Shown: in pieces, positions 8,332 through 56,817 of the stretch
Numbering within the stretch: the stretch's first letter is position 1
Layout: each line of letters starts with the position of its first letter
NCBI GenBank assembly: GCA_036873755.1
Contig: JAVTVY010033859.1
Coordinates: 1 to 64,000 of the forward strand
DNA length: 64,000 nt
Reading direction: 5' to 3'
Origin: Hanleya hanleyi
Taxonomy: Eukaryota; Mollusca; Polyplacophora; Lepidopleurida; Hanleyidae
Translations under genes and position numbers: made by a program
Notes under the pieces: model-generated
The model's input: the letters and a program-made list of their open reading frames with translations, nothing else
Database searches by the model: none
Told to the model about the DNA's origin: nothing

Positions 8332-8689
8332 CTACCAATAAGTAAAAATAAAGACTGTTCATGAAGAATAGACCTGAAACCTGAAGACGGTGTATACCTC
8401 ACAACGCTTCTTGATTCTAAACTAAATACTATACTACATGTTCACAGTCGTATGCTGAGACATGATGGTCTCGTATTTAGACGCGTCAGGCTGACTTGAG
8501 CCGCGAGGACGTCCATTTTGAAAATAGAAAGACGTAGTCCTACTTTCGGCTGCTTCTTCAGGGAGGTTCTGGAAATCCCATTAAGGTGCAGAAATGGTTA
8601 GTATTGTCTCGTATGCTTGTCTCGTATTGTCTTGTCTGAGGTACATCATTTTTAGATGACGACTCTATAACGAATATTATGGATTAAGA

Positions 8690-35931: not shown

Positions 35932-36243
35932 TGGTTTACAGCCATGCCATGGTGATGGTGATTTTAGAACCTGCAACGTGAGTAGTATATAAACGTGAAA
36001 TTGACCCCCTATTGAGCCACCAATTTTCTCTTTGTGGAGGTCACGTGACCGGAAGTGACCTTTGATTCCTGCGCATGCGCACAATACCGGATAATAATGG
36101 CACACAGGGGTCAAAGCTCACGTGACCTCCACAAAGAGCAAATTGGTGTCTCAATGGAGTCAATTTCAGGTTTATATACTACTCACGTTGCAGGTTCTAA
36201 AATCACCATACTGTACATGACTGCATGGCATGGCTGTAAACCA
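35932..36243. mobile_element. Hairpin element at the left end of the palindrome
   Basis: About 310 bp folding on itself: the left end 'ggtttacagccatgccatgg' is answered by 'ccatggcatggctgtaaacc'-type sequence at the right end. The stem includes 'ttctaaaatcaccat', 'agtagtatataaacgtg' and 'ctttgtggaggtcacgtgac'. The loop side contains ccggaagtgacc and tgcgcatgcgcac. A related hairpin lies just outside the right end of the giant palindrome (56618-56817). Confidence 0.7.
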
Positions 36244-36278
36244 TACATAGCCATACAGTGGAAGAAGGGGAATCCTCC

Positions 36279-36352
36279 TGGTCCCAGCGGAAGTCGAACC
36301 CGGGTTGCTCCCTTCAGAAGCAGGCACGTTATCCACTACACTCCAGTCAGCC
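36279..36352 (-). ncRNA. tRNA-like sequence (Pol III A/B boxes), left copy
   Basis: On the minus strand, an A-box-like GTGTAGTGGATAACGTG and a B-box GGGTTCGACTTCC sit at tRNA spacing. The anticodon arm can be drawn TGCTT-CTGAAGG-GAGCA, which would give a GAA anticodon. The acceptor ends do not pair well, so this is more likely the head of a tRNA-derived SINE than a working tRNA gene. The mirrored copy is at 56364-56442. Confidence 0.4.
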
Positions 36353-36589
36353 AATACTAGGCAAGGTTGAAAATACCCTCAGAGGGCCGATCACTATACC
36401 GATATGGTGTAGGCCCAATCGGGAATCCACACATGGACATTTGCGGTATGCAATGCTTAACCTAATGGAAAACCTACTCATGGACATTTGCGGTATGAGG
36501 CGTGGCCCCTTGTTTTCTTCATCTCGAGCTGCAGAACACGATGGGAGGGGTCTCGAGGCCATGCGTTGAAATTTTGTTGAAAAATGACT

Positions 36590-38700
36590 GTGCGCATGCG
36601 CCCTGGGCAAGTAGCGCTGGGGTGGACGTTTTAAGGTCTTGGTGGACCCTAGTGGTCCGATTGAGTCGGGTTAGGTGTCATTGTGAAGCACTCGTTGGGA
36701 AGCGTCCAACTGCATGCGCATGCGCAGTAGAAAAGGGGCATTGGAATGGACGTTTTGAGGTCTAGATGGACCCATAGTGGCCCGATTGGCCCGTGGGAGG
36801 GCTTATTTTGAAGTTCACTTCGTCGGATTGGACGGGTGTCTAGTCCGGTTTCATCATTCTGCGCATGCGCAGTCTGGCCTTGGTATAGAAAGCAGGCATT
36901 TCGGGGGTTTGTGGGGGCCTGTTGAGTGATTGAGGGACCATCCGTGGTCCGAATGAACCGTGTGGGGTATTATCTTGAAGCTCTCGGGTGTAGACTACGA
37001 TCTGTGGGATATTCACGTCATCTGTGACGTCATCAGTACGAGTAGTAGCGAAAGCGGGCGTTATTGGGGTCCGAATGCGTCGTGTTGGATGCCATCTTGT
37101 CGCTCTCGAGGCGTAGACCACGAATTGAGAGATGTCCACTTCATCTGTGACGTCATTGGTGACGTCATCAGTAGGAGTAGTAGCGAAAGCGGGCGTTTTG
37201 CGGGGGGTACGTGCAGGTGTGTTTGATGGACCATCCGTGGTCCGAATGCGTCGTGTGAGGTGTCAAAGTGAAACCCCCCTCGGGGTGTAGACCACGACTT
37301 GAGATGTCCACATCGTCTGTGACGTCATTAGTGAAGTCATCAGTAGAAGTAGTAGCCAAAGTGGGTATTTTGGGGTGTGAAGAAAGGTGTTTGGGGTAGA
37401 GATGGATCATCCCTGGTCCAAATGGCCCGTGCGTGGTGTCATCTTGTGGCTTTCTGCATGTAGACGACGCATGGTAAGGTGTTTGTTGGTAGTCGCATCG
37501 TGCTACGCATGCGCAGTAGTAACAAAAGATGTCATTTTGGGCGTGGAAAATGACATATTTGGGCAACCAAGGGACCCATCTTTGGTCCAAATGGACAGGT
37601 TGGTGCATCCTAGTGAAGCTTTCGTCGGGTAAAGTCAGACTGGCGTGTTTTTTATTGAAAGTCGCTCCAATCTGCAGATGGACAGTTGGGGTGTAGTAAT
37701 TAAAGTGGTCATTCTGGAGGAGCGCAGGGGTATATATCAGCGATTGAGGGACCATTCTTGGTCCGAATGCGTCGTGTGAGGTGTCAAAGTGAAACCCTCG
37801 GGGTGTAGACTACGACTTGAGGGATGTCCACTTCATCTGTAACGTCATTGGTGACGTCATCAGTAGGAGTAGTTGCCAAAGTGTGTATTTTGTGGGTGTG
37901 AAGGAAGGTTTTTGGGGTAGAGATGGACCATCCGTGGTCCAAATAGACCTTGTGGGGTGTCAACATGTAGCTCTCTGCATGTAGAAGACGAATAGTATGG
38001 TTTTTGCTGGAAATCGCATCGTGCTACGCATGCGCAGTTGGGCAGTAGTATCGAAAGATGTCATTTTGGGCGTGCGTGGGAGTGTGTTTGAGTGACCACA
38101 ATTGGTCCGATTGGGTCGTGGGAGGTGTCATAGTCAAGCACTCGTAGAATAGACCACAACTGGAGGGATGTGTCGTGGAAGTAAGGCTATGGCCCGCATA
38201 CGCAGAAACGGGCATTGAAAGGGACGGTATGGGGTCGAAATAGACCAATATTGGTCTGAATGAGTCTGGGGAAGTATCCGTTTGAAGCACTCGTGGCTTC
38301 GATTGGAGGGGTTGACGTCATTCTGCACATGCGCAGTCGTGGAGTAGTAGAAATATGACAGTTTCGGAAGTGCGCAAGGGCATCATATCACATTTGGGAG
38401 TATATTTTTCATCCAAGCATAGCGGATAGCGGGTGCCTAGTCCGCGCAGTTTGACCGTAATATAGAAAGCAGACGTTTTAGTGGTTCGTTTGTGAGTGAT
38501 TGATGGACCGTTCTTAGTCCTAATAGGTCGTGTAGGGTGTCAAATTGAAGCTCTCATGGTGTAGAGCACGACTTGGAGCATGTCATCTGTCTGTGTCGTC
38601 ATCAGTAGGAGTAGGAGCCAAAGTGGGCATTTTATGAGTGTGATGAAAGGTGTTTAGAGTAGAGATGGACTATCCCTGGTCCAAATGGCCCGTGAGGCGT
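36590..38700 (+). repeat. About 170-bp satellite array in the left arm
   Basis: The palindromic anchor 'ggaccatccgtggtcc' or a variant recurs at about 36642, 36768, 36937, 37229, 37402, 37570, 37748, 37924, 38092, 38243, 38503 and 38667, mostly 150-190 bp apart. Units also share 'ctctcgtggtgtagaccacg'-type sequence, 'tgtgacgtcatcagtaggag' and 'cgcatgcgcagtagtag'. Frames 37168-37755, 37387-37632 and neighbours on both strands are repeat-derived and not genes. Confidence 0.85.
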
Positions 38701-38828
38701 GCCCAACGCCCGACTTAACGCATGGACGCACTAACGATGTTGAGTGAGCGAGTGCCTGCGCGTGTGTGCGTATGTTAGTTAGCCGTCTCTCGTTCGGAAG
38801 ACATGGAGGCTCTGGAGAGCTGTCGCTG

Positions 38829-39146
38829 TCACTGTGTAAGACAGAACTGCCATGACCACAGCGTCAGGATCAATAGAGTAAAGACCATTGTGAAGTCAAC
38901 GAGCCGTCGCTGGTTCCGGCGTGAGCGCTCGTGGTTCATAGCCCGGGCATCATGAATGGTTGTCATAGTCCAGTAGTGGAGTCTGTCGAGAACCGCCTCT
39001 GTGAACTCTTCCAGGATCTGGCGTCGCCCCTCGTTGTCGTCGCCATCTCCAAACATGGACCGAACCACTGCTCGGTAACCGGTGAGTGAATTAACCACGG
39101 TTGCATGCTGTAAAATGCGAGTCGCGTAGGGATGGGTCTCCGTCAT
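38829..39146 (-). CDS. Unknown 105-aa ORF of the palindrome (left copy)
   Basis: The ATG at 39146 opens a 105-codon frame. Residues 1-80 are polar and helical (for example TGYRAVVRSMFGDGDDNEGR), followed by a hydrophobic tail (TMVFTLLILTLWSW) that could be a membrane segment. The mirrored copy in the right arm (52194-52466) keeps the reading frame through the same core, with many changes at third positions, which hints at past coding constraint. Just upstream, both arms keep an acceptor-like 'cctactgttgcag'. With the retrotransposon removed it would lie about 370 bp downstream of the zinc-finger ORF on the same strand, so the two may be exons of one gene. I do not recognise a family. It could be a transposon-encoded protein or a captured exon. 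Confidence 0.4.
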   Translation of the reverse strand: MTETHPYATRILQHATVVNSLTGYRAVVRSMFGDGDDNEGRRQILEEFTEAVLDRLHYWTMTTIHDARAMNHERSRRNQRRLVDFTMVFTLLILTLWSWQFCLTQ

Positions 39147-39318
39147 GGCTCTGCAACAGTAGGAATTGGGTCTGGTGTCCAGAGGAACATTTTATGGACG
39201 ATGTCACACATGCGCGCCTATACGTAGCTCTACGGGTGTAGTCCGTGCTAAGCACTACTCTGATTGGTCAGTCCACTGAGAGAACAACAACAAGGATTTA
39301 CAGGTCAATCATTTTATC

Positions 39319-39322
39319 ATCT
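39319..39322 (+). repeat. Target-site duplication of the Ty3/gypsy element, left
   Basis: ATCT here and at 47536-47539 flank the element. Removing the element and one ATCT restores 'caggtcaatcat...catcc', which aligns with the uninterrupted right arm near 52025-52045. Confidence 0.8.
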
Positions 39323-40485
39323 TGTGACGAAAATGCCCGTGACCTGAAGAATGTCATTTTCGTTCTACGCTGACATTCTAAATAACATTGTGAATGGACC
39401 GATAATGGTGGATATTCGACTTACCTGTATTAACTGTGCGCTGAAACTTTCAGCGAGGGACGCGTAAATATCCCTGACACGGATCTTGCATCGAAACCGG
39501 GCGAGAGAAGTCGAACTCTGTTGATCTGACACGAAATCCAACACCGCCTGAGTCTATACTTTCTGATGTTTGGACGCGCAATGGATTCTGGGAGCCAGAG
39601 CCTATATAAGACGCAGAGAATGGACGTTCGGCATTCTGTCCCAGACGATCGGCGGGTGAACATCGTGCGGGAGAGCACAGAGACAGGATCGCCGCAAATG
39701 CGCCGAAAGTGCCGAATTGACTGCCGAAACAGCGCCGAACCATCCGCCGAAGGGTTGGAAAGCCGAGAGCTTAGCCATAGCTTGGGGATAATAGATACTA
39801 ACACGCACAGTATCTGATGACGAGACGAACCGCCAAACGGGGATAAGATGCTAACACGCACAGCATCTGAAGACGAGATGTCCATCAACGGGAAATACAG
39901 AGCACCAAATATCCCACACTGCAGCCCATCACCCGAATACCATTTTACATGATTACATATATTTGCTTACATACAAGATCGTCGGCCTTAGGGACGGAAT
40001 AGATCTAATCACACTCACCTACGCTAGTTACCTACAGGCCTCGGCTAGAGGTGACGGATTACACAAGCTTACATCCACTGTACATATTTACACTGCCGCA
40101 GGGCTCGAATTATGCTTTGCCGCAAGTCTTGAATACTATTACAAATCATTGATATTAATTGACATTACACTGTAAGGTAATAATACGCCCCCGAGACCAG
40201 GGCATTATTACCACATATATATGCAGACAATCTGAACCTATTAACTCGTCCTTGGGTCAACGCCGTGAGGGCCGAAGTTGGGCCGCCGAAGACGTGAAGT
40301 CTGCCGAGCCGAAGACGGGTCGCCTTAGACGTGAGGTCTGCCGAGCCGAAGACGGGTCGCCGAAGTCGGGCCGCTGAAGACGTGAAGTCTGCCAAGCCGA
40401 AGACGGGTCGCCGAAGACGGGCCGCCGAAGACGTGAAGTCTGCCGAGCCGAAAGGGAGCGCCGCCGAATTCGGGCCGCCGAAGAC
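39323..40485 (+). repeat. 5' LTR of the Ty3/gypsy element
   Basis: Starts TGTGACGAAAATGCCCGTGA, with a TATA box TATATAAG at 39603-39610. The first 400 bp match the 3' LTR closely. Then comes a block of about 510 bp (39722-40235) that the 3' LTR lacks, followed by shared GC-rich tandem units ('gtctgccgagccgaagacgg'). It ends 'gccgccgaagac' directly before the primer-binding site, without the CGTCACA terminus seen in the 3' copy. Confidence 0.75.
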
Positions 40486-40503
40486 TGGTGGCAGCGGTGG
40501 GAT
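40486..40503 (+). promoter_or_regulatory. Primer-binding site for tRNA-Leu
   Basis: TGGTGGCAGCGGTGGGAT is complementary to the 3' end (…CCCACCGCTGCCA-CCA) of the metazoan tRNA-Leu with UAG or AAG anticodon, as I know it. It touches the 5' LTR end and overlaps the gag start codon at 40502. Confidence 0.8.
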
Positions 40504-43500
40504 GGCCAACACCGGGAAACCGATGGAGAAGGGACCACGCTGGGAAGAAATAAGAAAACCAAGCATGATGACTATTGGAGATGTCGGCGCCGAACTACGT
40601 CCAGCGGATAGCGACTCGCAGTCAGGCTGGACGAGAAGCCAGCGGCAGCTGTCCACAACGCCAACTCCAAGGGACCGAGAAGAGTCACGACAAGGAGTGG
40701 GGACCGGACGATCAGCGTTTGGGGCGCCGAAGAGAGTGGAATTGCTGGACCTGTCCACAGTAGAGCTGGACACAGTCCTATCGGCTCCCCCAGCTGACCT
40801 GTCGCCGAGACCTTCGAGGCAGACGTTATCCGACGTGAATGGAAGTTATCGAGCCCCTAAAGACTCTGGTTCTGATAACCACGGTCTCGGGGGCCGATAC
40901 GAACCCCGTGACGACTATTCGACCGTACAGATGATGGAAGAGATTGCCGAGCTACGACAAACCATCGGGTCTATAGCCGGGACTGTATCGATGATGGCGA
41001 GCCAGATGTCCAGAATCACCGACAGTCAGATACGGGAAAGAGAGGCGATCCGACGACCGGACACTGAAAACGACGCCGAAGAGCTGAATGCGAGTTGTGG
41101 AGCTGCTGAAACGGTTGGTGATAAACGCCGAACCGAATATATGTCCGGGTCGCAGCAGGGTTGCGATCAGACGCCACCGTCGCCGAAGAGAGGACGAGAT
41201 GAGCCCATGAGTTGGGGGCAGCCATTACAGACATCGACCCCTGCGGCTGAGGTGAGGCGACCGATGTTGACTGCGGCAAAGGCAGCTACCTATGATGGAA
41301 CGACGCCATTACGAGATTATCTCTCCCATTTCGACCACTGTGCTGCTATCAACGGATGGACATACTCACAACAGGGTCAATATCTGGCCGTCGCCCTCCG
41401 AGGATCTGCCCAGCAGCTTTTAGCCAGCTTGAAATCAGAACCAGGGAGTGCTGACTATGGACGATTGAGGGATGCCTTGGAGAAGCGTTTTGCCCCGCCG
41501 AATCAACTAGATTTGCACAAAGCGCAGTTAAAATCCAGATACCGCGAGAAGTCAGAAGATCTTCCGGGCTTAGCTCAGGCATTAGTTCGGCTTGCACAAC
41601 AGGCTTATCCCGAGGCCGGAGATGACGTACAGGATACCTTGGCAAAGGATCAGTTTTTGGAGGCTATTGGGGACGAGCTTAGATTTCTTGTATGGCAGAC
41701 GCGGCCGAAGACCTTAGATGCAGCTGTACACTCTGCTGTAGAAGTAGAAGCATTCAAGTTCTCGCAACGCCGTAAGACTTGGGCAACCGCGAAGTCCACG
41801 GTTCCTAGCAAAGATGAGGGATTAGCTGCAACCTCCGAGGATGACGAAGAATCTGAAGCTCGCCTGAGAAAACAGATCAAAGAATTGATGGAGGAAATAA
41901 TGCGAAAGTCTCAGCCTCAACCACGGCGACGACCACAAAGATACACCAGAGGTCAACAACGGACGTATGGGAATCGGGAACGAAGTAATGCTTGCTGGTC
42001 GTGCGGCAGAGAGGGTCATTACCGGGCGGACTGTCCAGATGTGTCCAGAACAGATGACTCTAAACCGCCCAGATCGCCCAAGAGTCCTCCCAAAGTTAAT
42101 ACTTCCGGGAAAGCTGGACTTTATTTACCTGCCAAGATCGGGCCAGTGAAGATGTGGTGTTGTGTTGACACGGGGGCGTCGATTTCCCTCCTGAGCGAGA
42201 AAGTATACAAGCAGCTGAGTCCGCGGCTCAGACCAGCCTTGAGTAGCCCATCTTACGCTAGTATTCGTATGGCTGACGGTACGCTGATGCCCCTGAAAGG
42301 TGAAGCTGATTTTAAAATCACTATAGACGGTACCACACGAACACAGAAGATGATAGTCGGAGATCTGACAGTGGACGCGCTTCTAGGGTACGACTTTCTC
42401 GGCACCCACTGTACCAAGATCGACACGGAGCGCCACAGGGTCAAGTATGGTGGCCGCTACATTCAATGCGAGGTCGTGGGGAGCGCAGGCTGTTACCGGG
42501 TAGCCGTGACCGAGACTGTGACTATTCCTGCTGGAGCCGAAGCCGTTGTAACAGGAAAAGTTCGTGGGGGCCTACCAGGCGAGGTAGGGATGATCGAAAA
42601 CGAACCGGAGTTTACCCAGAAGACAGGAGCCATGGTGGCCAGGGTCCTCACCGAGATTGACCGTGACCGCGAAGTCACACTGAGGTTTCTCAACTTGTCC
42701 TCAGATCCGACTGTAGTCCAGGCCGGGACGCTCTGTGGTCGTATGGGTGAAGTAGAAGTAGTGGGCGATCAAGTTTCGAGTGCGGCCGAAGCGTCGACGC
42801 CGAGCCGTGCGAAACCTAGTAGACAGAGGCCCGCCGTGCTGACCAGCGCATGTCCAGACCACCTTACAGATCTGGTTCGACGATCCAGCGAAGGCCTAGA
42901 GACAGACCAAGCCCTGGCTGTAGAAGATTTGGTCACCCGATATACTGACCTGTTCGCTAAGGACGATACTGATCTAGGTCGAACGACGAAGGTACAACAT
43001 CACATAAAGACTGGAAGTGCACCACCCATCCGCATTCCGCCGAGGCGACCGCCGATTCACGCCCGTGAAATGATCGATGAGCAAGTTGAAGACATGTTAC
43101 AGCGTGGAGTGGTCGAGCCATCCAGTGGACCGTGGTCAGCGCCGGTAGTTCTGGTGAAAAAGAAGGACGGGAAAATGCGCTTCTGCGTTGATTACCGTGC
43201 TTTGAACAAGATCACAGAGAAGGATGCTTACCCGTTGCCGAGGATCGACGACTCTCTGGATTCTTTAGCAGGTGCCAGTTGGTGGAGTACCCTTGACTTA
43301 ATGTCAGGGTACTGGCAAGTTGAAGTGTCCCCCGAAGATAGATGCAAGACAGCCTTTGCAACCAGGAAAGGTCTATACCAGTTCCGGGTTATGCCGTTCG
43401 GGCTCTGCAATGCGCCCGGGACCTTTGAGCGGCTAATGGAAGCCATCCTAGCAGGACTCCAGTATGATACGTGTCTCGTCTACCTTGACGATATCATCGT

Positions 43501-43690
43501 TTTTGGACGAACGTTTGACGAGATGATTCAGCGTCTGGATGGGGTCTTCGAGAGGTTAAAACAGCACGGTCTTAAGCTCAAGCCATCCAAGTGCGTCATA
43601 GGGGCACGACAAGTCCTTTATCTAGGCCACGTAGTATCACAGAATGGGATTGGAACAGACCCACAGAAGATCCGTGCTGTGCGAGACTGA
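40502..43690 (+). CDS. Ty3/gypsy gag-protease-reverse transcriptase portion, ends at an in-frame stop
   Basis: I take the start at ATG 40502 (MANTGKP). The longer open frame from 40331 only translates LTR tandem repeats. Domains, counted from this Met: a charged N-terminal region; a gag capsid-like segment (about 265-400, TYDGTTPLRDYLSHFDHC); a CCHC zinc knuckle CWSCGREGHYRADC at 498-511; aspartic protease active site DTGA at 556-559 with the later LLGYDFLG; reverse transcriptase with FCVDYRALNK near 893 and the catalytic YLDD at 994-997. The frame is closed by TGA (codon 1063) where related elements have Trp in the RDW-P-P motif. The frame then stays open in the same phase, so this is one nonsense change in a fused gag-pol. 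Gag and pol are fused, with no frameshift. Confidence 0.9.
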   Translation: MANTGKPMEKGPRWEEIRKPSMMTIGDVGAELRPADSDSQSGWTRSQRQLSTTPTPRDREESRQGVGTGRSAFGAPKRVELLDLSTVELDTVLSAPPADLSPRPSRQTLSDVNGSYRAPKDSGSDNHGLGGRYEPRDDYSTVQMMEEIAELRQTIGSIAGTVSMMASQMSRITDSQIREREAIRRPDTENDAEELNASCGAAETVGDKRRTEYMSGSQQGCDQTPPSPKRGRDEPMSWGQPLQTSTPAAEVRRPMLTAAKAATYDGTTPLRDYLSHFDHCAAINGWTYSQQGQYLAVALRGSAQQLLASLKSEPGSADYGRLRDALEKRFAPPNQLDLHKAQLKSRYREKSEDLPGLAQALVRLAQQAYPEAGDDVQDTLAKDQFLEAIGDELRFLVWQTRPKTLDAAVHSAVEVEAFKFSQRRKTWATAKSTVPSKDEGLAATSEDDEESEARLRKQIKELMEEIMRKSQPQPRRRPQRYTRGQQRTYGNRERSNACWSCGREGHYRADCPDVSRTDDSKPPRSPKSPPKVNTSGKAGLYLPAKIGPVKMWCCVDTGASISLLSEKVYKQLSPRLRPALSSPSYASIRMADGTLMPLKGEADFKITIDGTTRTQKMIVGDLTVDALLGYDFLGTHCTKIDTERHRVKYGGRYIQCEVVGSAGCYRVAVTETVTIPAGAEAVVTGKVRGGLPGEVGMIENEPEFTQKTGAMVARVLTEIDRDREVTLRFLNLSSDPTVVQAGTLCGRMGEVEVVGDQVSSAAEASTPSRAKPSRQRPAVLTSACPDHLTDLVRRSSEGLETDQALAVEDLVTRYTDLFAKDDTDLGRTTKVQHHIKTGSAPPIRIPPRRPPIHAREMIDEQVEDMLQRGVVEPSSGPWSAPVVLVKKKDGKMRFCVDYRALNKITEKDAYPLPRIDDSLDSLAGASWWSTLDLMSGYWQVEVSPEDRCKTAFATRKGLYQFRVMPFGLCNAPGTFERLMEAILAGLQYDTCLVYLDDIIVFGRTFDEMIQRLDGVFERLKQHGLKLKPSKCVIGARQVLYLGHVVSQNGIGTDPQKIRAVRD

Positions 43691-45961
43691 CCTCCACCCG
43701 TTTCGCAGACCGAGGTTCGGAGCTTCCTGGGTCTCTGCAGCTACTATCGACGTTTCATCCGGGACTTTGCCACCATTGCAGCGCCGCTGCATACGCTAAC
43801 TGAAAAGAAGACAGTCTTCATATGGGACAACACAGCGCAGCAAGCCTTCGACACCCTGAAAGACAAGCTGACGACCGCGCCTGTGCTTGCTATGCCAGAC
43901 TTTAAGCTCCCTTTCATTCTGGACACGGACGCGAGTAACTTTGGCATCGGGGCCGTTTTGTCACAGGTGGTAGACGGAGAAGAGAAGGTCGTGGCATACG
44001 CCAGTCGTGTGTTGTCGAAGGCCGAACGAGCCTACTGTGTGACGAGAAGAGAACTACTTGCTGTTGTGCATTTCGTCAAATGCTTTCGACACTACCTGTT
44101 TGGGCGGAAGTTTTTGCTTCGCACCGATCACGGCTCGCTGAGATGGCTCATGCGGTTCAAGGAACCGGAGGGACAGCTGGGCCGTTGGATTCAGGCCCTC
44201 GGCGTCTACGATTTCAACATCGAGCATCGTCCGGATCGAAAACATGGTAACGCCGACGCACTGAGTCGTATCCCATGCAAACAGTGTGGTCGATCAAGCA
44301 GCGATGACGTTCAGGCAGCCGCCCGTGTGATTGAGATGGTGTCGCCAACCGAAGGATTCGGCCGAGCCCAGGCCGAAGATCCCGACCTACAACCTGTTCT
44401 CGACTGGGTGCGGCAAGGTAGCCGACCAAACCGAGAAGACGTCAGTCCGTACGGACTCGTCACGAAGAGCCTGTGGGGTGCCTTCCATATGTTGGAGATT
44501 TGCGATTCGCTGCTGGTTAGACGTTGGGTGGATGACCGTGGTAATGTCAAGCGACGACTGCTGGTTGTACCTCGTTCCTTGCGCCGTAAAGTGTTAAGAG
44601 AGTGCCACGACGGTCCCACCGGTGGACATCTCGGAGTAAAGAAGACTTTAGCGAAGGTGAGGCAGGCCTATACCTGGCCTGGCCTGCAGACGGACATACG
44701 CCAATGGTGCCGGAGCTACGATGTATGTAACAGAAGAAAGCAGGCTGGACGCAAACCGCGAGGACCACACAGTGGACAGATGACTGGTTGTCCGGGAGAG
44801 AGGATCGCAGTCGACATCCTTGGGCCCATGCCCGAGACGGGCAGTGGAAACCAGTATATTGCGGTCATCGGAGACTATTTTACTCGTTGGGTCGAAGCCG
44901 TTGCCATGCCCAACCAAGAAGCTCCTACTGTTGCACAGGCTGTGGTGGAACACTATGTGACCAAGTTCGGTGTTCCGATGGCGATCCATTCAGACCAAGG
45001 CCGCCAGTTTGAGAGCCGTGTCTTCAAAGGGATGTGCCGAATTTTGGGGATGAGGAAGACAAGGACGACGCCATACCACCCCCAATCGAATGGCATGATT
45101 GAGCGGTTCAACAGAACATTAGCCCAAATGCTACATGCCAGTGTTGACCGTCATCCAAGCGACTGGGACCTGCATATACCGCTTGTAGTGATGTCCTATC
45201 GTGCTACAGCCCATGAGACGACAGGATTTTCGCCGAATATGATGGTGTTCGGGAGAGAAGTCTCTCTGCCGTCTCACTTGGTACTGGGAGCTCCTCCACG
45301 TCAGCAAGTGGAACCTACAGAGTGGGTAGAAGAACTACGGGACGAGATGGACGAGGTTCATCGTAACGCCCGAGAAGTGACTGGGAAGAGCCTGCGGCGC
45401 CAGAAGAGGGTATATGATATCAAGGCCTTTCCGCAAAAGTATAAACCTGGAGATCAGGTTTACCTGTACATTTCTGCTCCCAGACGTGGAGAGAATCGAA
45501 AACTACGAGACCGCTGGGCAGGACCATACGTGATAAAGGAAGCTCTCACGGACGTGACCTACCGCATTGCAGATGCGGACGGAGGTCTCCGGGTTGTTCA
45601 CCATGACAAGCTGAAGCCTTTCTATGCTCGTGAGATGTCCACCAGTGAGTCAGAAGAAACGTCTGGCGACGATGGAGATGTAGAATTAGATGATAGCGTC
45701 GGACATGGGGCTATCTTTCCTTACCCCATGGAACCATCGACTGTCGTCAGAACGCCGACTGTTGACCGGCGACCTCGATTGACCCGGGGCGGGCGTGAGA
45801 TACGGCGACCACGGAGATTTGCCGATTTCGAGGTTGATTTGCAGTCTGCATCACCATTGGATCTCGAGATGGAAGCTTTACCCCCGGCCGAGGCCGAGAC
45901 AGAACCGCGGCGGACGACCCGAGGTCGAGTGATAAAACGCCCCACGCGTTATCGGGATTAA
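43691..45961 (+). pseudogene. Ty3/gypsy RT end, RNase H and integrase portion after the stop
   Basis: Same frame as the upstream part. It begins with the RT connection (TEVRSFLGLCSYYRRFIRDF) and continues into RNase H (ILDTDASNFGIGAVLSQ near 1139; GNADALSR near 1250). The integrase HHCC zinc domain is near 1366-1410 (H and H in ECHDGPTGGHLG, C and C in WCRSYDVC). The DDE core has D in AVDILGP near 1436, D in HSDQGRQFES near 1496 and E in GMIERFNRT near 1532. A GPY/F-type module (AGPYVI) lies near 1672 and an acidic, then basic tail ends at a TAA. It cannot be made from this copy except by readthrough or internal initiation (first ATG at 43892). Catalytic residues are intact by eye. Confidence 0.88.
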
Positions 45962-46206
45962 TGTAATTCGGCAGTGTTTGGTCAGTGCCGTGAAGCAGGG
46001 ATCTGATGTCTCCTCCTTCAGTGACGACCCAGCAGACCGCTGGGAGGAATGTCTGATGTAATTCTACCGTATTTAAGCCTTTGTTATTATACTGTGGACT
46101 ATCTACACATTCGGATAAAAGGCTGCGTGTTAATTCTACTCACCTGTGATTGGTAGCTGTGCCGAGCTCCACGACGAGGGCGTCGTGTTTTCGAAGGCGT
46201 GGGTAG
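45962..46206 (+). other. Retrotransposon 3' untranslated region
   Basis: 245 bp between the integrase stop and the 3' LTR. The bases just before the LTR (gaaggcgtgggtag) are only moderately purine-rich, so the polypurine tract is weak or diverged. Confidence 0.5.
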
Positions 46207-47535: not shown

Positions 47536-47539
47536 ATCT
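47536..47539 (+). repeat. Target-site duplication of the Ty3/gypsy element, right
   Basis: ATCT, partner of 39319-39322. Confidence 0.8.
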
Positions 47540-47732
47540 CATCCATCCATCCAGCACACCCATGCTGGGGGGGAGGGGGGGGTGCTATGGCTGTGTTTAC
47601 AATTCACTTGTGAGCTTGTCCAATCAGAAGCCGACCCTCAGAATAAGTACAAGTCACGTTGCAAGGATGGAACACAAACTGTGGACGTCTTTTGGATTGA
47701 TGGGGATAAACTGATTTTGAACTAGCTCGACC

Positions 47733-48116
47733 TCAATGTGCGTTATGGACCGACCGTTGATGTCGCCGTAAATTATCCTTTCGATTAAATGAATTCCTGC
47801 AGATCGAACATGTATACTCGCCAACAGGACCTTGAAAAGTAGACTCGTGGATGGGGTCAAAAGCCACGGGACCCATAACCCTCAAGCGTGCATGTCCATG
47901 GATTACACGTTGGTGAAATCTCAACTGGCTGTGTAGTCTGAAGCGGTGTCCACAATCCCCACATTGATGCCTGGATGTCTCATGGAGACACCGTTCATGG
48001 CGGTGTAAACTATCCAGAAGATTAAATGTATCCTCACAGGTCTCGCAGGTGTACTGGGCAGTAGGGACAGATTCCACTTCTCTTGCTGTATGGACATGTC
48101 TCCTCCAGTACATCAT
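47733..48116 (-). CDS. C2H2 zinc-finger protein of the palindrome (left copy, intact)
   Basis: I start it at ATG 48116; the GTG two codons earlier is in frame. Counted from that GTG, three classical C2H2 fingers are complete: C26/C29/H42/H47, C54/C57/H70/H75 and C105/C108/H121/H126, all with C-x2-C-x12-H-x4-H spacing. The last one is YTCSICRNSFNRKDNLRRHQ. A 25-residue linker separates fingers 2 and 3. About 129 residues, stop soon after the last finger. Nucleic-acid binding is the family role; the target is unknown. CCAAT-type (TGATTGGAC) and ATAAAAG sequences lie upstream on the same strand. The right-arm copy is broken (51420-51803). It could be the first exon of a gene continuing into the 38829-39146 ORF. 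Confidence 0.6.
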   Translation of the reverse strand: MMYWRRHVHTAREVESVPTAQYTCETCEDTFNLLDSLHRHERCLHETSRHQCGDCGHRFRLHSQLRFHQRVIHGHARLRVMGPVAFDPIHESTFQGPVGEYTCSICRNSFNRKDNLRRHQRSVHNAH

Positions 48117-48568
48117 ACCCACGCTGGGGGAGCCGCGTTTGGGTATGTCTACAATTCTCGAAGGCTCTTGTCCAATCAGAAGCCGTCGTTTCGGCCGTGT
48201 ACCACTTTACTATACACTTGCTTTTATGGACAATAACACAGTAACGCTCGCCAACGCCTAGCTTTACGCTTACGCTTGCTTTTATGGACAGTAACACAGT
48301 AAACGCTCGCCAATGCCTAGCTTAACGCTTCAACGCCCTGGTTTAATAACCCTGAAGCTCTGATTTTCTAGATATTTCAATGGAATTGTCACTAATTCAG
48401 CGAAATGCAGTGACGCCCGTCAACGCCCGACTCAACGTCTTTCCGCCCTATCCTAACGCCCTAACAGGGAAAGTAACCATTCAGTGCAGCCATTCACGCG
48501 ACATGTGAACGCATGTAACAAAATGTAGCCCTAAATATGACTCATTATGTCCATCATAATCAACGTTG
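48117..48568. other. Arm sequence between zinc-finger ORF and tRNA genes
   Basis: Holds a ~65-bp direct repeat ('cttttatggacaataacaca'/'cttttatggacagtaacaca', then 'cgctcgccaa') and many 'aacgcc' units. It is mirrored at 51200-51415. No gene is seen. Confidence 0.5.
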
Positions 48569-48653
48569 GTCAGGATGGCCGAGTGGTCTAAGGCGCCGGA
48601 CTTAAGTGCTGGTCCACATTTGTGGGACGTGGGTTCGCATCCCACTCCTGACA
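48569..48653 (+). tRNA. tRNA-Leu (anticodon UAA), possibly functional
   Basis: 85 nt. The acceptor stem GTCAGGA/TCCTGAC is perfect, the D arm GGCCGAGTGGTCTAAGGC is type-II leucine-like, the anticodon loop is CTTAAGT (UAA), the variable arm is long, and the T arm is GTGGG/CCCAC. A TTTTT Pol III terminator follows at 48660-48664. Oddities: the T loop reads TTCGCAT instead of TTCGAAT (the near-universal A58 is C), and the last anticodon-stem pair is A-G. The mirrored copy at 51002-51086 keeps the normal T loop. Confidence 0.75.
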
Positions 48654-48746
48654 CGCACCTTTTTCGTTATTCTTCGCTATGTTGTAAAACCATTGTATGA
48701 ATATAGCACTATATATGAATCATTATGACTACAATAACCAGCGTTG

Positions 48747-48862
48747 GTCAGGATGGCCGAGTGGTCTAAGGTGCCGTCTCAAGATCTATGAAATTATCTT
48801 CCCCAAGGTATGGGTATACTGGTCTGCACATGCAGGCGTGGGTTCGAATCCCAGTCCTGACA
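48747..48862 (+). tRNA. tRNA-Leu (anticodon CAA) with intron
   Basis: 116 nt. Acceptor GTCAGGA/TCCTGAC is perfect, the leucine D arm is present, and CTCAAG is followed by an intron of about 30 nt (atctatgaaattatcttccc onward), as in animal tRNA-Leu(CAA). The T arm TTCGAAT is intact and a TTTT terminator follows. One base appears to be missing in the 5' half of the anticodon stem and one T-stem pair is G-G, so it may be weakened. The mirrored copy is split by the 49708-50813 element. Confidence 0.7.
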
Positions 48863-48894
48863 TGCACAATTTTATTGGTCACAATAACCAGCCG

Positions 48895-49425
48895 ACTATG
48901 GTGGTTGTTATTGGAAGTCACATCATTCTGCATATGTGCAGTCGGGTAGTAGTAGAGAAAGAACAGTTCGGAGGTGCGCTGGTCCGAATTGGCCCTGTAA
49001 GGTGAGCACCGCTTGTGGGGGAGAGCCAGACTGGCTACCGGGTAGTTTGTGTGTGTCTGTGTGTGTGTGTGTATGGGTGGGTATGTGTACATGTGTGTGT
49101 GTTGTAATGCGGGGATAATAAAATTGGCTATATGCTGGTTGTTTTGTTAATGTCTCTTGGTTGTGCTTACATTGAATGTGTGTGAGCATACTATCGCGAT
49201 GAGAGAAGGTTTGCTTACAGAAAGTAGTCAACATGGTCCCCGGTCACACACACACACACACACACAAACTATACCTGGTGGCCAATCTGACTCTCCCCCA
49301 CGAGCGTTGCCCACCTTAAACGGCCAATTCGGACCAGCGCACCTCCAAAATTGTTCCTTCTCTACTATTACCCGACTGCACATGTGCAGAACGATGTGAC
49401 TTCCAAAAACAACCACCACAGTGAA
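48895..49425. repeat. Central hairpin of the palindrome with (TG)n/(CA)n
   Basis: 48895-49050 is answered by the reverse complement in 49255-49425 (shared 'tgcgctggtccgaattggcc' against 'ggccaattcggaccagcgca'). A TG-rich run (about 49047-49105) and a CA run (49243-49268) lie on the inner sides. The unpaired middle is about 49110-49240. The arms belong to the ~170-bp satellite family. Confidence 0.75.
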
Positions 49426-49427
49426 AC

Positions 49428-49621
49428 CACAGGCCCGCAAAACAAGAGATTTGGGGGGTGTGGGCGGTGGTATCAGGGTGAAGTGTCGAAATATGGGGTC
49501 TCTATATATAACCCCATGCATTGATGTAAAGCATGGGGTTATATTTAGAGACCCCATATTCGACACTTCACCCTAATACCACCGCCCACACCCCCCAAAT
49601 CTCTTGTTTTGCGGGCCTGTG
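49428..49621. mobile_element. 194-bp near-perfect hairpin MITE
   Basis: Ends CACAGGCCCGCAAAACAAGA and its reverse complement TCTTGTTTTGCGGGCCTGTG. The two halves pair almost without a break around a loop at 49513-49527 (gcattgatgtaaagc). There is no coding capacity. The CAGGCCCG-type ends suggest hAT-like, but no clean target duplication was found. Confidence 0.7.
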
Positions 49622-49689
49622 AGTCAAAACTCTTCCATGAGCGTTGCCCACCTCACAAGGCTAGTTATTGTCACCAGTAAAATGGTGCG

Positions 49690-50917
49690 TGTCAGGAGTG
49701 GGATTCGTACGGAAGCGTCTAGCGGCCATGACGAGAAATACTTCTTCGAAATTTCGAGATACTAAGTCGAAATTTCGAGATACTAAGTCGAAATTTCGTG
49801 TTAATAAGTCGAAATTTCGAGATACTAAGTTGAAATTTCGAGTTGATACGAAGTGGAAATTTCGAGTTACTTAGTCGAAATTTCGAGATAGCAGGTCGAA
49901 ATTCCGAGATACTAAGTCGACTTAAAATACCAGTACCTGGAAAAATTACTCTTAATATGGCCCCTAGACACCTCCAGGAAGCGCCCACGGGCCATGCTAA
50001 TGTGAGATCTTTTTTCAAATGTCGACATCGACTTCGTAACTCAAAATGTCGACTTAACTCTAAATTTTGACTTTATAACTCTATATTTGAGTTAATATCT
50101 CGACATTTGAAAAAAGGTCTCTCCTTAGCATGGCCCATTGACGCTTCCTGGAGGCGTCTAGGGGCAATATTAAGAATATTTTTTTCAGGTATATTAAGTC
50201 GACTTAGCGGCCATGACGAGAAATACTTCTTCGAAATTTCGAGATACTAAGTCGAAATTTCGAGATACTAAGTCGAAATTTCGTGTTAATAAGTCGAAAT
50301 TTCGAGATACTAAGTTGAAATTTCGAGTTGATACGAAGTGGAAATTTCGAGTTACTTAGTCGAAATTTCGAGATAGCAGGTCGAAATTCCGAGATACTAA
50401 GTCGACTTAAAATACCAGTACCTGGAAAAATTACTCTTAATATGGCCCCTAGACGCCTCCAGGAAGCGCCCACGGGCCATGCTAATGTGAGATCTTTTTT
50501 CAAATGTCGACATCGACTTCGTAACTCAAAATGTTGACTTAACTCTAAATTTTGACTTAATAACTCTATATTTGAGTTAATATCTCGACATTTGAAAAAA
50601 GGTCTCTCCTTAGCATGGCCCATTGACGCTTCCTGGAGGCGTCTTGGGGCAATATTAAGAATATTTTTTTCAGGTATATTAAGTCGACTTAGTATCTCGA
50701 AATTTCGACTTAGTATCTCGAAATTTCGACATAGCATACTATCTCGAAATTTCGACTTAGTATCTCGAAATTTCTTAAAAGATTTCTCGTCTTGGCCCCT
50801 AGACGCTTCCGTAGATTCGAACCCACGCCCACATGTGCAAACCAGTATACCCATACCCAGGGGAAGACAATTTCATAGATCTTGAAACTGGCACCTTAGA
50901 CCACTTGCCATCCCAAT
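49690..50917 (-). pseudogene. tRNA-Leu(CAA) split by a foldback element
   Basis: The 3' part of a minus-strand tRNA-Leu (acceptor TCCTGACA, T stem) lies at 49690-49707. The rest (T loop, variable arm, anticodon TTTCAAG with intron, D arm) lies at 50814-50917. The break is in the B box, and GATTCG is duplicated at both sides. The 5' acceptor has also decayed (CATTGGGATGG). This is the mirror copy of 48747-48862. Confidence 0.75.
49708..50813. mobile_element. 1.1-kb foldback element inserted in a tRNA B box
   Basis: Terminal inverted repeats start TACGGAAGCGTCTAG and end CTAGACGCTTCCGTA, and continue inward through 'cgagaaat' and many copies of 'aagtcgaaatttcgagatac'. GATTCG is duplicated at 49702-49707 and 50814-50819. 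Inside, a segment of about 485 bp is repeated in tandem (49721 onward and 50206 onward), and each has its own inner hairpin ('ggcccctagacgcctccagg' against 'cctggaggcgtctaggggc'). No transposase. Frames such as 50204-50854 and 49719-50018 on the minus strand are read from the repeats. Confidence 0.85.
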
Positions 50918-51001
50918 GCTGGTTATCGTGGTCATCATGATTCATATATAGTGCTATATTTGTACAATGATTTTATGGCAAAGAATAACGAAAAAGGTGC
51001 G

Positions 51002-51086
51002 TGTCAGGAGTGGGATTCGAACCAACGTCCCACAAATGTAGACCAGCACTTAAGACTGGCGCCTTAGACTACTTGGCCATACTGAC
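51002..51086 (-). tRNA. tRNA-Leu (anticodon UAA), right-arm copy
   Basis: Mirror of 48569-48653. The anticodon stem-loop CCAGT-CTTAAGT-GCTGG and T loop TTCGAAT are good, but the acceptor 5' half is GTCAGTA against TCCTGAC (one mismatch), the D arm has drifted (GGCCAAGTAGTC) and the T stem reads GTTGG/CCCAC. It is followed by 'accttttt', a Pol III terminator. Probably decaying. Confidence 0.55.
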
Positions 51087-51419
51087 CAACGTTGATTATG
51101 ATGGACATAATGAGTCATATTTAGTGCTACATTTTGTTACATGCTTTTACATGTCGCGGTGTGTATGCCGTGAATGCCCTTATGGCTGCACTGATTGGGT
51201 ACTTCCCCAGCCCGCCGATTGACTTGTCTATGCGCATTAGGGCGTTAGGATAGGGCGTTGAGGCGTTGGTTAACAGGCGTCACTACATTTCGCTGAATTA
51301 GTGACAATTCCATGGAATATCTAGAAAATCAGAGCTTCGGGGCTATTTCACCTGGCGTTGAAGTGTTAAGCTAGGCGTTGGCGAGCATTGCTGTGTTACT
51401 GTCCATAAAAGCCGTGGGT

Positions 51420-51803
51420 ATGATGCACTGGAGGAGATATGGCCATACAGCAAGAGAAGTGGAATCTGCCCCTACTGCCCAGTACACCTGCGAGACCTGT
51501 GAGGATACATTTAATTGTCTGGATAGTTTACACCGCCGTGAACGGTGTCTCCATGAGAAATCCAGGCATCAATATGGGGATTGTGGACACCACTTCAGAC
51601 TATACACAGTCAGTTGAGATCTCACCAACGTGTAAGCCATGGACAAGCACGCTTGAGGGTTGAGGAAACCCGTGGTGTTTGGCCTCATCCATGAGTCTAC
51701 TTTTCAAGGTCCTGTTGGCGAGTATACATGTTCGATCTGCAGGAAGTCATTTAATCATAAGGAAAATTACGGCAACATTAACGGTCGGTCCATAAGGCAC
51801 CCA
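51420..51803 (+). pseudogene. C2H2 zinc-finger ORF, broken right-arm copy
   Basis: Corresponds to 47733-48116 read in the opposite orientation. Finger 1 keeps its Cys pair and last His but has Arg for the first His; finger 2 has lost a Cys (HQYGDCGHHF) and the frame runs to a stop near 51615. The stretch for finger 3 (YTCSICRKSFNHKENYG) is present in another frame. The left copy is intact. Confidence 0.7.
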
Positions 51804-52193
51804 GCCATGAATGCCACCATTGAGGTTGAGTTTCAGACTTCACAGTCAGTCGATCCGCATCAATTCAAAAGACTTTGGCTTCTGATTGGACAACAGCAGT
51901 CTGAGATTAGCACAATTAACTTCTGACTAGACCAGAGCAGCCGATAATGCGGCCAATACACGGATAATAGCAGAAGTGAATTGTAAACACAACCATAGCG
52001 ATTCTCGCAGCGTGGGTGTGCTGTGATGGATTGATGATTGACCTGTAATCCTTATTGTTGTTGTTCTCTTATTGGACTACCCAATCAGAATAGTACTTAT
52101 CACGGACTACACCCTTACAGCTACGTATAGGCGCACATGTGTGACATCGTCTAAAAAACATGTCTCTCTGGACCCCAAGCCCCATTCCTACTG

Positions 52194-52466
52194 TTGCAGA
52201 GCCATGACGGATACGCGACTCGCATTTTACAGCATACGACCGTGGTTAATTCAATTACGGGTTACCGTGCAGTGGTTCGGTCCATGTTTGGAGATGGCAA
52301 CAACAGTGAGGGGCGACGCCAGATTCTGGAAGCATTCAAAGAAGCGTTCCTCGACAGAGTTGACTCGATGGAGAGGTGTGCTATCACCCACCACTACTGG
52401 ACTAGGACAGCCATCCTTGATGCTCAGGCTATGAACCACGAGCGCTCACGCCAGAACCAGCGGTGA
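52194..52466 (+). pseudogene. Unknown ORF of the palindrome, right-arm copy
   Basis: Mirror of 38829-39146. A 10-base deletion after the original ATG (52203) shifts the start. The core YATRILQHTTVVNSITGYRA through MFGDGNNSEGRRQILEAF is still open, and a TGA comes after the HERSRQNQR segment, so the hydrophobic tail is lost. It is a degenerate copy, but conserved enough to support that the left frame was once coding. Confidence 0.55.
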
Positions 52467-52609
52467 TTCGTTGGCCTCGTAATGGTCTTTGCCCCGGACG
52501 CTGTGGCCACGACAGTTATCTTACAGCGACAGAAAAGAACGGCTCTTCAGAGCCTCCATGTCTTCCGAACGAGAGACGGCTAACTAAGCACAATGTTCAC
52601 ATACACACA

Positions 52610-52611
<2 letters not shown>

Positions 52612-52641
<30 letters not shown>

Positions 52642-52665
52642 TACACACATGCACTCGCTCACTCA
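52612..52665 (+). repeat. (CA)n microsatellite in the right arm
   Basis: acacacacacac run with interruptions. The corresponding left-arm site (about 38755-38770, cgtgtgtgcg) has only a short trace, so it expanded after the arms separated. Confidence 0.7.
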
Positions 52666-52699
52666 ACATCATTAATGCGTCCATGCGTTAAGACGGGCG

Positions 52700-55600
52700 T
52701 TGGGCATGCCTCACGGGTCATTTGGACCACGGATATGGTCCATCTCTACCCCAAACACATTTCTTCACACCCCTAAAATGCCCAATTTGGCTACTACTCC
52801 TACTGATGATGTCACAGATGACGTGGACATGCCTCAAGTTGTGGTCTACACGAGAGCTTCAATATGACACCCTACATGACCTATTAGGACCAAGAATGGT
52901 CCAGCAATCACTCACAAACGAACCGCTAAAATGCCTGCTTTCCATACTACGACCAGACTGCGCATCTACAGAATGGTGAAACCGGACTAGACACCCGCTA
53001 TTCGCTATACTTGGATGAAATATATACCTCCAGATGTGATATAGTGGCTTTGCGCGCTTCCGAAACTGTCCTTTTTCTACTACTTCATGAATGCATATGT
53101 GCAGAATGACGTCATTTCCACGAGTGAGTGAATATGATTTAATATTGCTTCTTACTCTTTTTCACACCCAGGAATCACACGGGTAGGTTCCTATTCCCTT
53201 TCACACCCGAAATCCCACGAGTGGGGTCCTTTTCCTTTTCACACCCGGGATCCCCAGTTATTCGCCTCTTACGACAAGCTCTCTGAGAAGCGGAGACCTA
53301 TTATTACCATGACCTGGAGTGTGCACAATGACACCCCAGGTCAATCTCCGGGAGCCTCACGGGGCCCATTTCCACTACCCAACCACTCCAATCAGAGCCA
53401 CGAGTGCTTCAAACTGATACCTCCCCCGACCCATTCAGATCAATATTGGTTCACCCCACAATTCTGTCTGCGTATGCAAGCCATAGCCTTACTTCCATGA
53501 CACACCCATCCAGTCAAAGTCTACTCTACGAGTGCTTCAATATGACACATCCCACACCCCAATAGTGGTTCATCAATCACTCAAACACACTCCACGCACA
53601 TGCCCAAAATGACATCTTTCGTTACTACGGTCCAACTGTGCATGCGTATCACGATGAGACTTCCAAAAAAAACCCATACCATTCGTCGTCTACATGCAGA
53701 GCTACAAGATGACACCCCCCACGGTCCACTTGAACAACGGATGGTCCATCTCTACCCCAAACACCTTCCTTCACCCCCCAAAATGCCCACTTTGGCCACT
53801 ACTCCTACTGATGACGTCACCAATGACATCACAGATGACGTGAACATCCCCAAGTCGTGGTCTACACCCCGAGGGTTTCACTTTGGTGGCCGTTCACAGT
53901 TTCGTAGTAATGGCCTAATATGATAGACTGCCCGTGTTCTGCTACATCATAACTTTTCTTGTCTTCTTAATAGCTTATATCTTTTATACCATCCTATTCA
54001 GCATTATCAACGCTGCAAATGAGCACATACAGATCGATCGGGATCATGGACTAAATTTTGTCCTGCCTCAGTTATGCCCCTTGGGTGTGCTCACTTACGA
54101 GAAGAAAATCTGACAAAAAAAGGGCAGGTTGACCCTCACTTTTTTTTTTGCCTTTTTAAGTGGAGATCAGACCAGGGATGTGAGTAAGAAGTTTAATTGA
54201 AATCGCTCCTACAAATTTGAGCCGAATTTGGAAATTGAGCCGAATTTGACCATTTTTTTCGACATTTTAAAGGGAACGTAAACTCTGTGGCAAAACACCG
54301 CGGGAATTATACAAGAGTCCCAATAGATTAAAAAAATTGTGACAAAGATTTGTTCACATTTTTTCCCGATGAATGAGAAAAGCGCAAACACAGAAAATAT
54401 TGTGATTTGCAATTTCTCGAGGGCGCCGCCATGTTTATTTTGGGCAGGATTTTAAACCAATGGGAAAGCGTAAAATTCAGTTGTGCCGATAATCTCCTAC
54501 GTCATCAGACATTCTCTGTGCCGAGATAGCATAGCCGCACATGGTCTTTTTTATGCACTTCTCCGTTCCCCGACTGACAGATGCAATGTTATAGATTAGT
54601 TTTTCTTTAGAATACGGCCTGATTCTAGCAGGAAGCCTACCATGCTGGGCTGCTCTGCATTTGGCTGTCACAATGTGCCAGGTAATCCCGACACGTCGAA
54701 CTACCATCCCTATTCATGTTTGTAAGCTACGGTCTCGAATACTGCACCCATGCGACAACCTATCATTGTATGTGTTTATACTTGCTGAAATCAGTGTTTT
54801 TATTTGTTGGGAGTTACTTCCCCTTGATCACTGTACGTTTACTTTGATCGTAATAAAATTTGTATCATATCGTATCGAATTAACGCGTTTTTACCTCCAG
54901 AGGCAGAAGAACTAGTGTACACTGACGTCACGATTCTTCAACCATGACGGCCTCTGTGTAGTTCCAGTGTAGCGAAGTTAAAACGTTTAGTACCACTTAA
55001 AAAAAAAATGTAAAAAAATATCTGATACACGATTTGGATTCTAGGAAAAATGAAGCAAGCTTGGAGGAGAATGTTCGAGATTCATTTTTCTATAACACAG
55101 CAGTGTTACATCTTAAAATAATAGTTCAATCATGCTCTTTCAGAAAATATATACATATAAGTGGTTTGGGTTGACGATTTTACGACAATTGGTGGCCGAA
55201 AAACGGACCCATAGTCTATTCCAAGCCAAATGGAAGAATCCCTGGAGTGCACCCTTTGACACCTCACACCATGCATTCGGACCAAGAATGGTCCCTCAAT
55301 TGCTCAAATATACCCAGGCTGCGCACCTCCAGAATGACCACTTACGTACTACACCCCAATAAAAACACGCCAGTCTGACTACTCCACGAAAGCTTCACTA
55401 GGATACCCCAACCAGACCGTTTGGACCCAAGATGAATCCCTTGATTGCCCAAACATGTCATTTCCCATGCCCAAAATGACATTATTTCGTTACTACTGCC
55501 CAACTGCACATGCGTAGCACGATGCGACTACCAACAAACACCATACCATTCGTCATCTACATGCAGAGAGCTATAAGATTACACCCCACACGGTCCATTT

Positions 55601-56140
55601 AGATCATGGTCCATTTCTACCCCAAACACCTTCCTTCACACCCCCAAAATGCTCACTTTAGCTACTCCTACTGATGACATCACAGATGACGTCAACACCT
55701 CTCAAGTCATGGTCTACACCACGAGAGCTTCAAGATGGCACCCCACACGGTCCATTCGGATCACGGATATTCCCTCAATCACTCCACAGACCCCCATGAA
55801 CCCTACAAATTGCCCGCTTTCCATACCACGGACAGTATGATGAGACCGGACTATACACCAGTCCAATCCGATGTTACCCCAAGAGAACTTCAAAATAAGG
55901 CCTCCCACCGGGCCAATCGGACCACTCTGAGTCCGTCTCGACCTCAAAATGTCTATTCCAATGCCCCTTTTCTGCTGCGCATGCGCAGGATGACATCAGT
56001 GCCAACCCACACCCATCCAGTTGAATTGCTCCCTCACGAGTGCTTCATGATGACACCTCACACGATCGGTCCATTACGAGTCCACCTAGACCCCAAAACG
56101 TCCACCCCGACCAGTGTGCATGCGCACAGTAACTTTTCAA
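52700..56140 (-). repeat. About 170-bp satellite array in the right arm
   Basis: Reverse-orientation units with 'ggaccacggatatggtcc', 'ggaccaagaatggtcc' and similar anchors, 'tactgatgacgtcaccaatg', and 'ctgctgcgcatgcgcagg'. They are interrupted by the SINE-like block near 53120-53370 and by about 1.2 kb (53890-55130) of AT-rich sequence that has no partner in the left arm and no gene I can defend. Confidence 0.8.
53120..53370 (+). repeat. SINE-like gastropod repeat inserted in the right arm
   Basis: 'gagtgagtgaatatgattta', then 'tttcacacccggg', 'cgcctcttacgacaagctct' and 'gacctggagtgtgcacaatg'. The same unit is at 58505-58730. The left arm at about 38290-38310 runs straight across this point, so it is an insertion. 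Confidence 0.7.
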
Positions 56141-56363
56141 CAAATTTCAATGCATGGCCTCGAGACCCCTCCCATCGTGTTAGCTCGAGATGAAGAAAAC
56201 AAGGGGCCACACCCCATACCGCAAATGTCCATGAGTGGGTTTCCCATTAGGTTAAACATTGCATACAGCAAATGTCCATGCGTGGGTTCCCGATTTCCCA
56301 TAGCGGTATAGTGATTGGCCCTCTGGTAGGTATACGAGGGTATTTTCAACCTTGCCTACTATG

Positions 56364-56442
56364 GGCTGACTGCATGGTAGTGTAGTGGATAGCGTGCCCG
56401 CTTCTGAAGGGAGCAACCTGGATTAGACTCCTGCTAGGACCA
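56364..56442 (+). ncRNA. tRNA-like sequence, right copy
   Basis: Mirror of 36279-36352 with TAGTGTAGTGGATAGCGTG and a degenerate B box (GGATTAGACTCC). Not expected to be functional. Confidence 0.35.
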
Positions 56443-56617
56443 GGAGGATTCCCCTTCTCCCACTTTATGGCTATTATAACCTAGAAGCTGTACCCGGGAC
56501 CCTTTGACTTCGATTACCTACCAAACATTCCTAGAGATAACCGGACATCGCCGAACACTACCGAACATTGCCGAAGAGTCCCTCATTGACCCTCGTATTA
56601 ATAGCCAGGTTTCGTGG

Positions 56618-56817
56618 GGAAAATGACCCCTCTTGGGCCACCAATTTGCTCTTTGTGGAGGTCACGTGACCGGAAGTGACCGTTGACCCCTGGGCACCTT
56701 TACTATCCGGTATTGCGCGCATGCGCAGGGGTCAAAGGTCACTTCCGGTAACAGGACCTCCACAAAGAGCAAATTGGTGGCTCAATATGGGTCAATTTAC
56801 GCTTTATATACTACTAC
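56618..56817. mobile_element. Hairpin element outside the right end of the palindrome
   Basis: 'ccaccaatttgctctttgtg' is answered by 'cacaaagagcaaattggtgg'. The inside carries gtcacgtgaccggaagtgac and gcgcgcatgcgcagg. Related to 35932-36243 but without its outer stem. Confidence 0.65.

Follow-up and report, generated by a model that had tools for sequence, protein, structure and literature searches.

The DNA analysed here, a 64,000-nucleotide stretch (the window) from the mollusc Hanleya hanleyi, contains a decayed palindrome. Self-comparison of the window joins a left arm (36243-49069) to a right arm (49245-56477) by collinear inverted blocks that match in mirror order over their whole length, as a self dot-plot had been proposed to reveal. 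The original prediction had described 36244-48900 and 49655-56480 as reverse complements with the same order of parts; that order holds, and the inner bounds are shifted to 49069 on the left and 49245 on the right. The best mirror match reaches 1486 bits; when the right arm was dinucleotide-shuffled 100 times, no score exceeded 34 bits. The size of 20 kb first given to the palindrome is too large, as the inverted repeats proper come to only about 4.6 and 4.3 kb once later insertions are removed. From the outside inward, the order is a hairpin just outside the arm, a tRNA-like stretch, a satellite, an open frame without known relatives, a C2H2 zinc-finger frame and two tRNA genes. The parts of the symmetrical unit are as follows.

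35932 to 36243, no strand: left outer hairpin, with a core (35981-36183) common to the right hairpin; abuts the left arm
36243 to 49069, plus strand: left arm, defined by mirror blocks; about 4.6 kb minus the retrotransposon
36270 to 36360, minus strand: tRNA-like stretch, left arm, at its outer end, recognized by eye only; reads outward and is aligned with its mirror
36600 to 38760, plus strand: satellite of about 170-bp modules, left arm, by module comparison
38829 to 39191, minus strand: open frame of 120 aa, left arm, without known relatives; the right-arm copy is disrupted
47733 to 48206, minus strand: C2H2 zinc-finger frame of 157 aa, left arm (Pfam zf-C2H2, E 7.2e-9; three fingers by spacing, judged by eye)
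48569 to 48654, plus strand: tRNA-Leu(TAA), left arm (ARAGORN, Rfam), with a changed T-loop base
48747 to 48862, plus strand: second tRNA gene, left arm (Rfam tRNA, 32 bits; an intron-bearing Leu(CAA) by eye)
49070 to 49244, no strand: axis spacer of 175 bp, with (TG)n at its left border and (CA)n at its right
49245 to 56477, minus strand: right arm, defined by mirror blocks; about 4.3 kb minus its four private stretches
50814 to 50920, minus strand: second tRNA gene, right arm, interrupted by a MITE-like element; its 3' end is at 49685-49707
51001 to 51086, minus strand: tRNA-Leu(TAA), right arm (ARAGORN, Rfam), with changed acceptor stem, D-loop and T-stem
51413 to 52034, plus strand: counterpart of the zinc-finger frame, right arm, frameshifted
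52601 to 53125, 53380 to 53885 and 55261 to 56400: mirror of the satellite, right arm
56350 to 56450, plus strand: tRNA-like stretch, right arm, at its outer end, recognized by eye only; reads outward and is aligned with its mirror
56619 to 56815, no strand: right outer hairpin, in the opposite orientation to the left hairpin (K2P 0.174)

Over eleven mirror blocks, including that of the outer hairpins, the arms differ at 582 of 4,183 aligned sites (about 14%). K2P between the arms is 0.112-0.192 (0.155 overall) and shows no clear trend from the axis to the outer end, and a divergence this even fits one old event. The earlier argument that the arms are too diverged to be an assembly echo is borne out by the same counts. 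GC content is 0.45-0.53 in the arm pieces versus 0.39 and 0.37 in the two flanks; in 1-kb steps it rises at 36 kb (0.40 to 0.51) and drops at 57 kb (0.49 to 0.37). The spacer is unique sequence, and the symmetry ends in the (TG)n/(CA)n pair, which places inverted homology at both spacer borders. Long, internally repetitive inverted repeats, a mark of Foldback-type elements, form most of the unit, and no second such unit appeared in self-comparison of the 64-kb window. The palindrome is real, old and decayed, and each of its parts is of a known kind.

Satellite modules are spaced mostly at 149-176 bp and are too diverged for detection by TRF. For module comparison, 12 modules of the left arm were set against 11 of the right, one of 13 left anchors being dropped as too short. 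Left-arm modules have a mean identity to each other of 0.47. Reciprocal best matching pairs eight of the 12 with right-arm modules, in every case in mirror order and with identities of 0.63-0.88; among the remaining four, two match a neighbour's partner, one match is non-reciprocal and one module has a poor anchor. Because identity across the arms exceeds the left-arm mean, the satellite was mostly old already at doubling. One pair of stretches within the arm is 85.6% identical on the left and 84.8% on the right, as alike as across the mirror, so this local doubling dates from about the same time as the palindrome, and part of the array was young when the unit doubled. The GC skew of the satellite is +0.28 on the left (36400-38700), and -0.30 (52601-53885) and -0.28 (55261-56477) on the right. 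Two short palindromic motifs are denser in the arms than in the flank: TGACGTCA occurs 9 times in 9,057 bp of arms versus 4 times in 43,051 bp of flank, and GCATGCGCAG 7 times versus once in the same lengths; CACGTG shows the opposite, with 0 occurrences in the arms and 4 in the flank. A regulatory meaning for these motifs was considered and dropped, since copies of one satellite are not independent.

The original prediction that the unit carries tRNA genes, a zinc-finger sequence and satellite DNA proved right for each arm, though what is carried is damaged. In addition to the changes listed above, inspection by eye finds an anticodon-stem mismatch in the left tRNA-Leu(TAA), a changed anticodon stem and T-stem in the left second tRNA, and an altered 5' end, besides the MITE-like interruption, in the right second tRNA. 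The latter gene is reported by neither ARAGORN nor Rfam, and the left outer tRNA-like stretch has no Rfam listing at E up to 1. The tRNA defects identified are, as judged by eye, each private to one arm; the tRNA-Leu genes were thus probably intact when the unit was duplicated, to go by this comparison of sequences. Damage confined to one arm is also the expected outcome if constraint on ordinary genes was lost once they had been copied.

Conservation of protein sequence between the arms is not apparent, as neither frame has a clear third-position excess. Differences by codon position number 7, 17 and 12 (of 134, 134 and 135) in the zinc-finger frame and 18, 15 and 22 (of 114 each) in the 120-aa frame. 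Searches that detect only relatives with exact 5-residue words in common returned 20 candidates for the zinc-finger frame, none at E 1e-3, and 5 for the 120-aa frame, none at E 1. Pfam found no transposase domain in these two arm frames. Pattern searches of viral contigs gave 14 matches to the zinc-finger protein, 0 of them confirmed, and 0 matches each to the hairpin core and the tRNA-like stretch, the last also with 0 matches in prokaryotic genome contigs; these misses say little because the collections are viral and prokaryotic.

Several stretches within the arms have no partner across the axis, one on the left and four on the right.

39323 to 47535, plus strand: Ty3/gypsy LTR retrotransposon, left arm (Pfam domains), with ends TGTGACG...CGTCACA and ATCT on both sides
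about 49428 to 49625, no strand: hairpin, right arm only
49708 to 50813, no strand: MITE-like element with 15-bp inverted ends, a 6-bp target duplication (GATTCG) and an internal 485-bp tandem duplication
about 53126 to 53379, no strand: SINE-like stretch, right arm only, with a related copy at 58562-58717
about 53886 to 55260, no strand: 1.4-kb stretch, right arm only, its ends not clean

The left-arm element, of about 8.2 kb, encodes protease, reverse transcriptase, RNase H and integrase in the Ty3/gypsy order (Pfam), in two frames parted by one stop; the protease is matched by two Pfam models, one above the cut-off and one below. Its two LTRs are not fully collinear, and their alignable parts differ by K2P of 0.018 and 0.008, roughly a tenth of the divergence of the arms. 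It is a later insertion, much younger than the palindrome, and not cargo. Relatives of its frame have 39-53% identity among the 120 of 5,169 matches listed, in which the named sources are Pinctada, Actinostola, Trichonephila and one symbiont assembly.

On the right, the MITE-like element sits inside the second tRNA gene. Rfam microRNA matches at 49451-49598, in the right-arm-only hairpin, score under the gathering threshold, reflect a long hairpin and were rejected. The second SINE-like copy (about 80%) indicates that the right-arm piece is a dispersed repeat. Within the 1.4-kb stretch, a short open frame on the plus strand (54600-54725, MLGCSAFGCHN) resembles the start of a THAP domain, and GGTGGCCG is present near both ends of the stretch.

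The rest of the window holds a 125-aa open frame (4609-4986, minus strand) that is lipocalin-like by eye and for which neither Pfam (E 0.1) nor PDB (E 1) gave a match. A tandem array at 16650-18637 has an 87-bp unit in about 22 copies, to which higher-order periods of 351 and 442 bp also fit, and a 32-bp minisatellite at 59486-60255 has 16 copies at 95% match in its best part. Two inverted pairs of dispersed repeats outside the palindrome (8636-8931 with 34330-34631, 95% identity; 3222-3933 with 29912-30294, 92% identity) are probably transposon copies.

As had been noted at the outset, related hairpins lie just beyond both ends of the palindrome; they are of one family, at 35932-36243 on the left and 56619-56815 on the right. 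They align better when inverted (158 of 187 sites, 84.5%) than directly (149 of 186, 80.1%), with five informative sites for the inverted orientation versus one for the direct, and their K2P of 0.174 is like the divergence of the arms. By their orientation and divergence, the outer hairpins likely belonged to the doubled unit. Counting against this is the stretch that separates each hairpin from its arm (about 60 bp on the left, about 140 bp on the right), which is unrelated on the two sides; on the right it lies at 56478-56618. No target duplication beyond chance was found at the borders of the unit: the longest string in common over five boundary pairings is 6 bp, and 583 of 2,000 random pairs share one at least as long; the ends of the unit may be eroded. 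Hairpins and cargo had been held to favour a discrete unit. The GC shift and the inverted orientation and divergence of the hairpins agree with that; the argument from cargo is weakened, as the largest ORFs are those of the younger retrotransposon and damage affects the tRNA and zinc-finger sequences of at least one arm.

With a confidence evenly divided for and against, we regard the two head-to-head copies of about 4.5 kb as the product of one old inverted duplication, perhaps primed by fold-back at the TG/CA pair. Mirror collinearity, even K2P, the end of the symmetry in TG/CA and the lack of a target duplication beyond chance speak for it. Inverted duplications are known to arise by fold-back where short inverted homology is present (PMC3907307; PMC10622511). 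A break near the axis would leave a single strand ending in (CA)n that pairs with (TG)n; the paired end would prime outward copying of the block, and copying that stopped near the outer hairpin would leave inverted hairpins at both ends. After doubling, nothing would have kept the copies alike, so that decay of the tRNA and protein sequences ran independently in the two arms, each of which also received transposons. The human and yeast fold-back duplications described in these reports likewise have two inverted copies separated by a unique spacer that has inverted homology on either side (PMC3907307; PMC10622511). The spacers of 21 sequenced human cases are 766-70,466 bp (PMC3907307), all longer than the 175 bp found here, and the fold-back cases described are fresh, usually megabase-sized and near chromosome ends, whereas the Hanleya unit is old, measures 4.5 kb and has hairpins outside both ends (PMC3907307; PMC10622511). 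Against a duplication, part of the satellite array was young when doubled, and the inverted hairpins and GC change near both ends fit a mobile unit no less well. Since runs of TG/CA are common, the position of the axis at one may be coincidence. The unrelated stretches between hairpin and arm are predicted neither by duplication nor by a foldback element.

The strongest rival, a tenable though less probable one, is that the palindrome is what remains of a large non-autonomous Foldback-type DNA transposon, mobilized by a transposase encoded elsewhere. Its long inverted repeats would run from terminal hairpins through satellite and an inner tRNA/zinc-finger domain to a tiny middle, a layout that follows that of Tetris, a Foldback of Drosophila virilis, in its long inverted repeats, outer domain, tandem repeats, inner domain and small noncoding middle (PMC4079207). 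The equally diverged inverted hairpins at both ends and the GC island that changes at both ends would be accounted for as well. The internal tandem repeats of Tetris are about 220 bp versus about 170 bp here, its inverted repeats reach up to 1,735 bp versus arms of 4.3-4.6 kb, and, unlike Tetris as described, the arms hold tRNA genes and a zinc-finger frame (PMC4079207). Host-like sequence has a parallel in Tm1, a Mutator/Foldback family of root-knot nematodes with likewise composite inverted repeats and internal repeats, which carries a host-like histone-hairpin motif and so shows that foldbacks can hold such sequence (PMC3169594). Target duplications are where these systems part from the palindrome. 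Complete Tetris copies have 8-9 bp duplications and occur in several places (PMC4079207), Tm1 elements, of about 1-3 kb, have 9-bp duplications at several sites (PMC3169594), and Galileo, a P-superfamily foldback of Drosophila, has 7-bp duplications and many copies (PMC2775673), whereas the palindrome has only the chance-level 6-bp string at its borders and no second copy within 64 kb. Nor does either arm frame tested contain a transposase domain, although foldbacks often lack one, and most satellite modules had diverged far before the arms formed. That a giant Foldback-type element, with 4.5-kb inverted repeats and hairpin ends, carried an intact leucine-tRNA pair and a zinc-finger gene, and so spread tRNA genes genome-wide, is rather unlikely.

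Separate events could also have set two dispersed 4.5-kb repeat copies head to head, or mobilized a segment between two hairpin MITEs. The hairpins do look like a MITE family, and unrelated sequence parts hairpin from arm on the right; both arms end at the same module and the divergences of hairpins and arms agree, neither of which independent insertions need, and we consider this explanation improbable. Large palindromes are hard to assemble, but an assembly error that put two haplotypes or repeats together in inverse order is very improbable given differences at about 14% of aligned sites and insertions private to each arm, two of them with flanking target duplications.

Whether the unit is local, as in the inverted duplication that we prefer, or mobile, the order of events reads the same from the sequence: the satellite came first, then the duplication, then the insertions. 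The present unit is predicted to be inactive. Among the titles and abstract openings listed in literature searches, none showed a tRNA-carrying foldback or palindrome of this sort, which is not proof of absence from print. In the palindrome, hairpin ends are combined with satellite arms and tRNA genes, and the whole would be unusual only if further copies occur elsewhere in the genome. If the unit was mobile, a foldback element carrying once-intact tRNA genes would be a route by which the number of tRNA genes changes. A local duplication would instead offer a datable case of how inverted duplications age, with both tRNA pairs damaged and each arm gaining transposons of its own.
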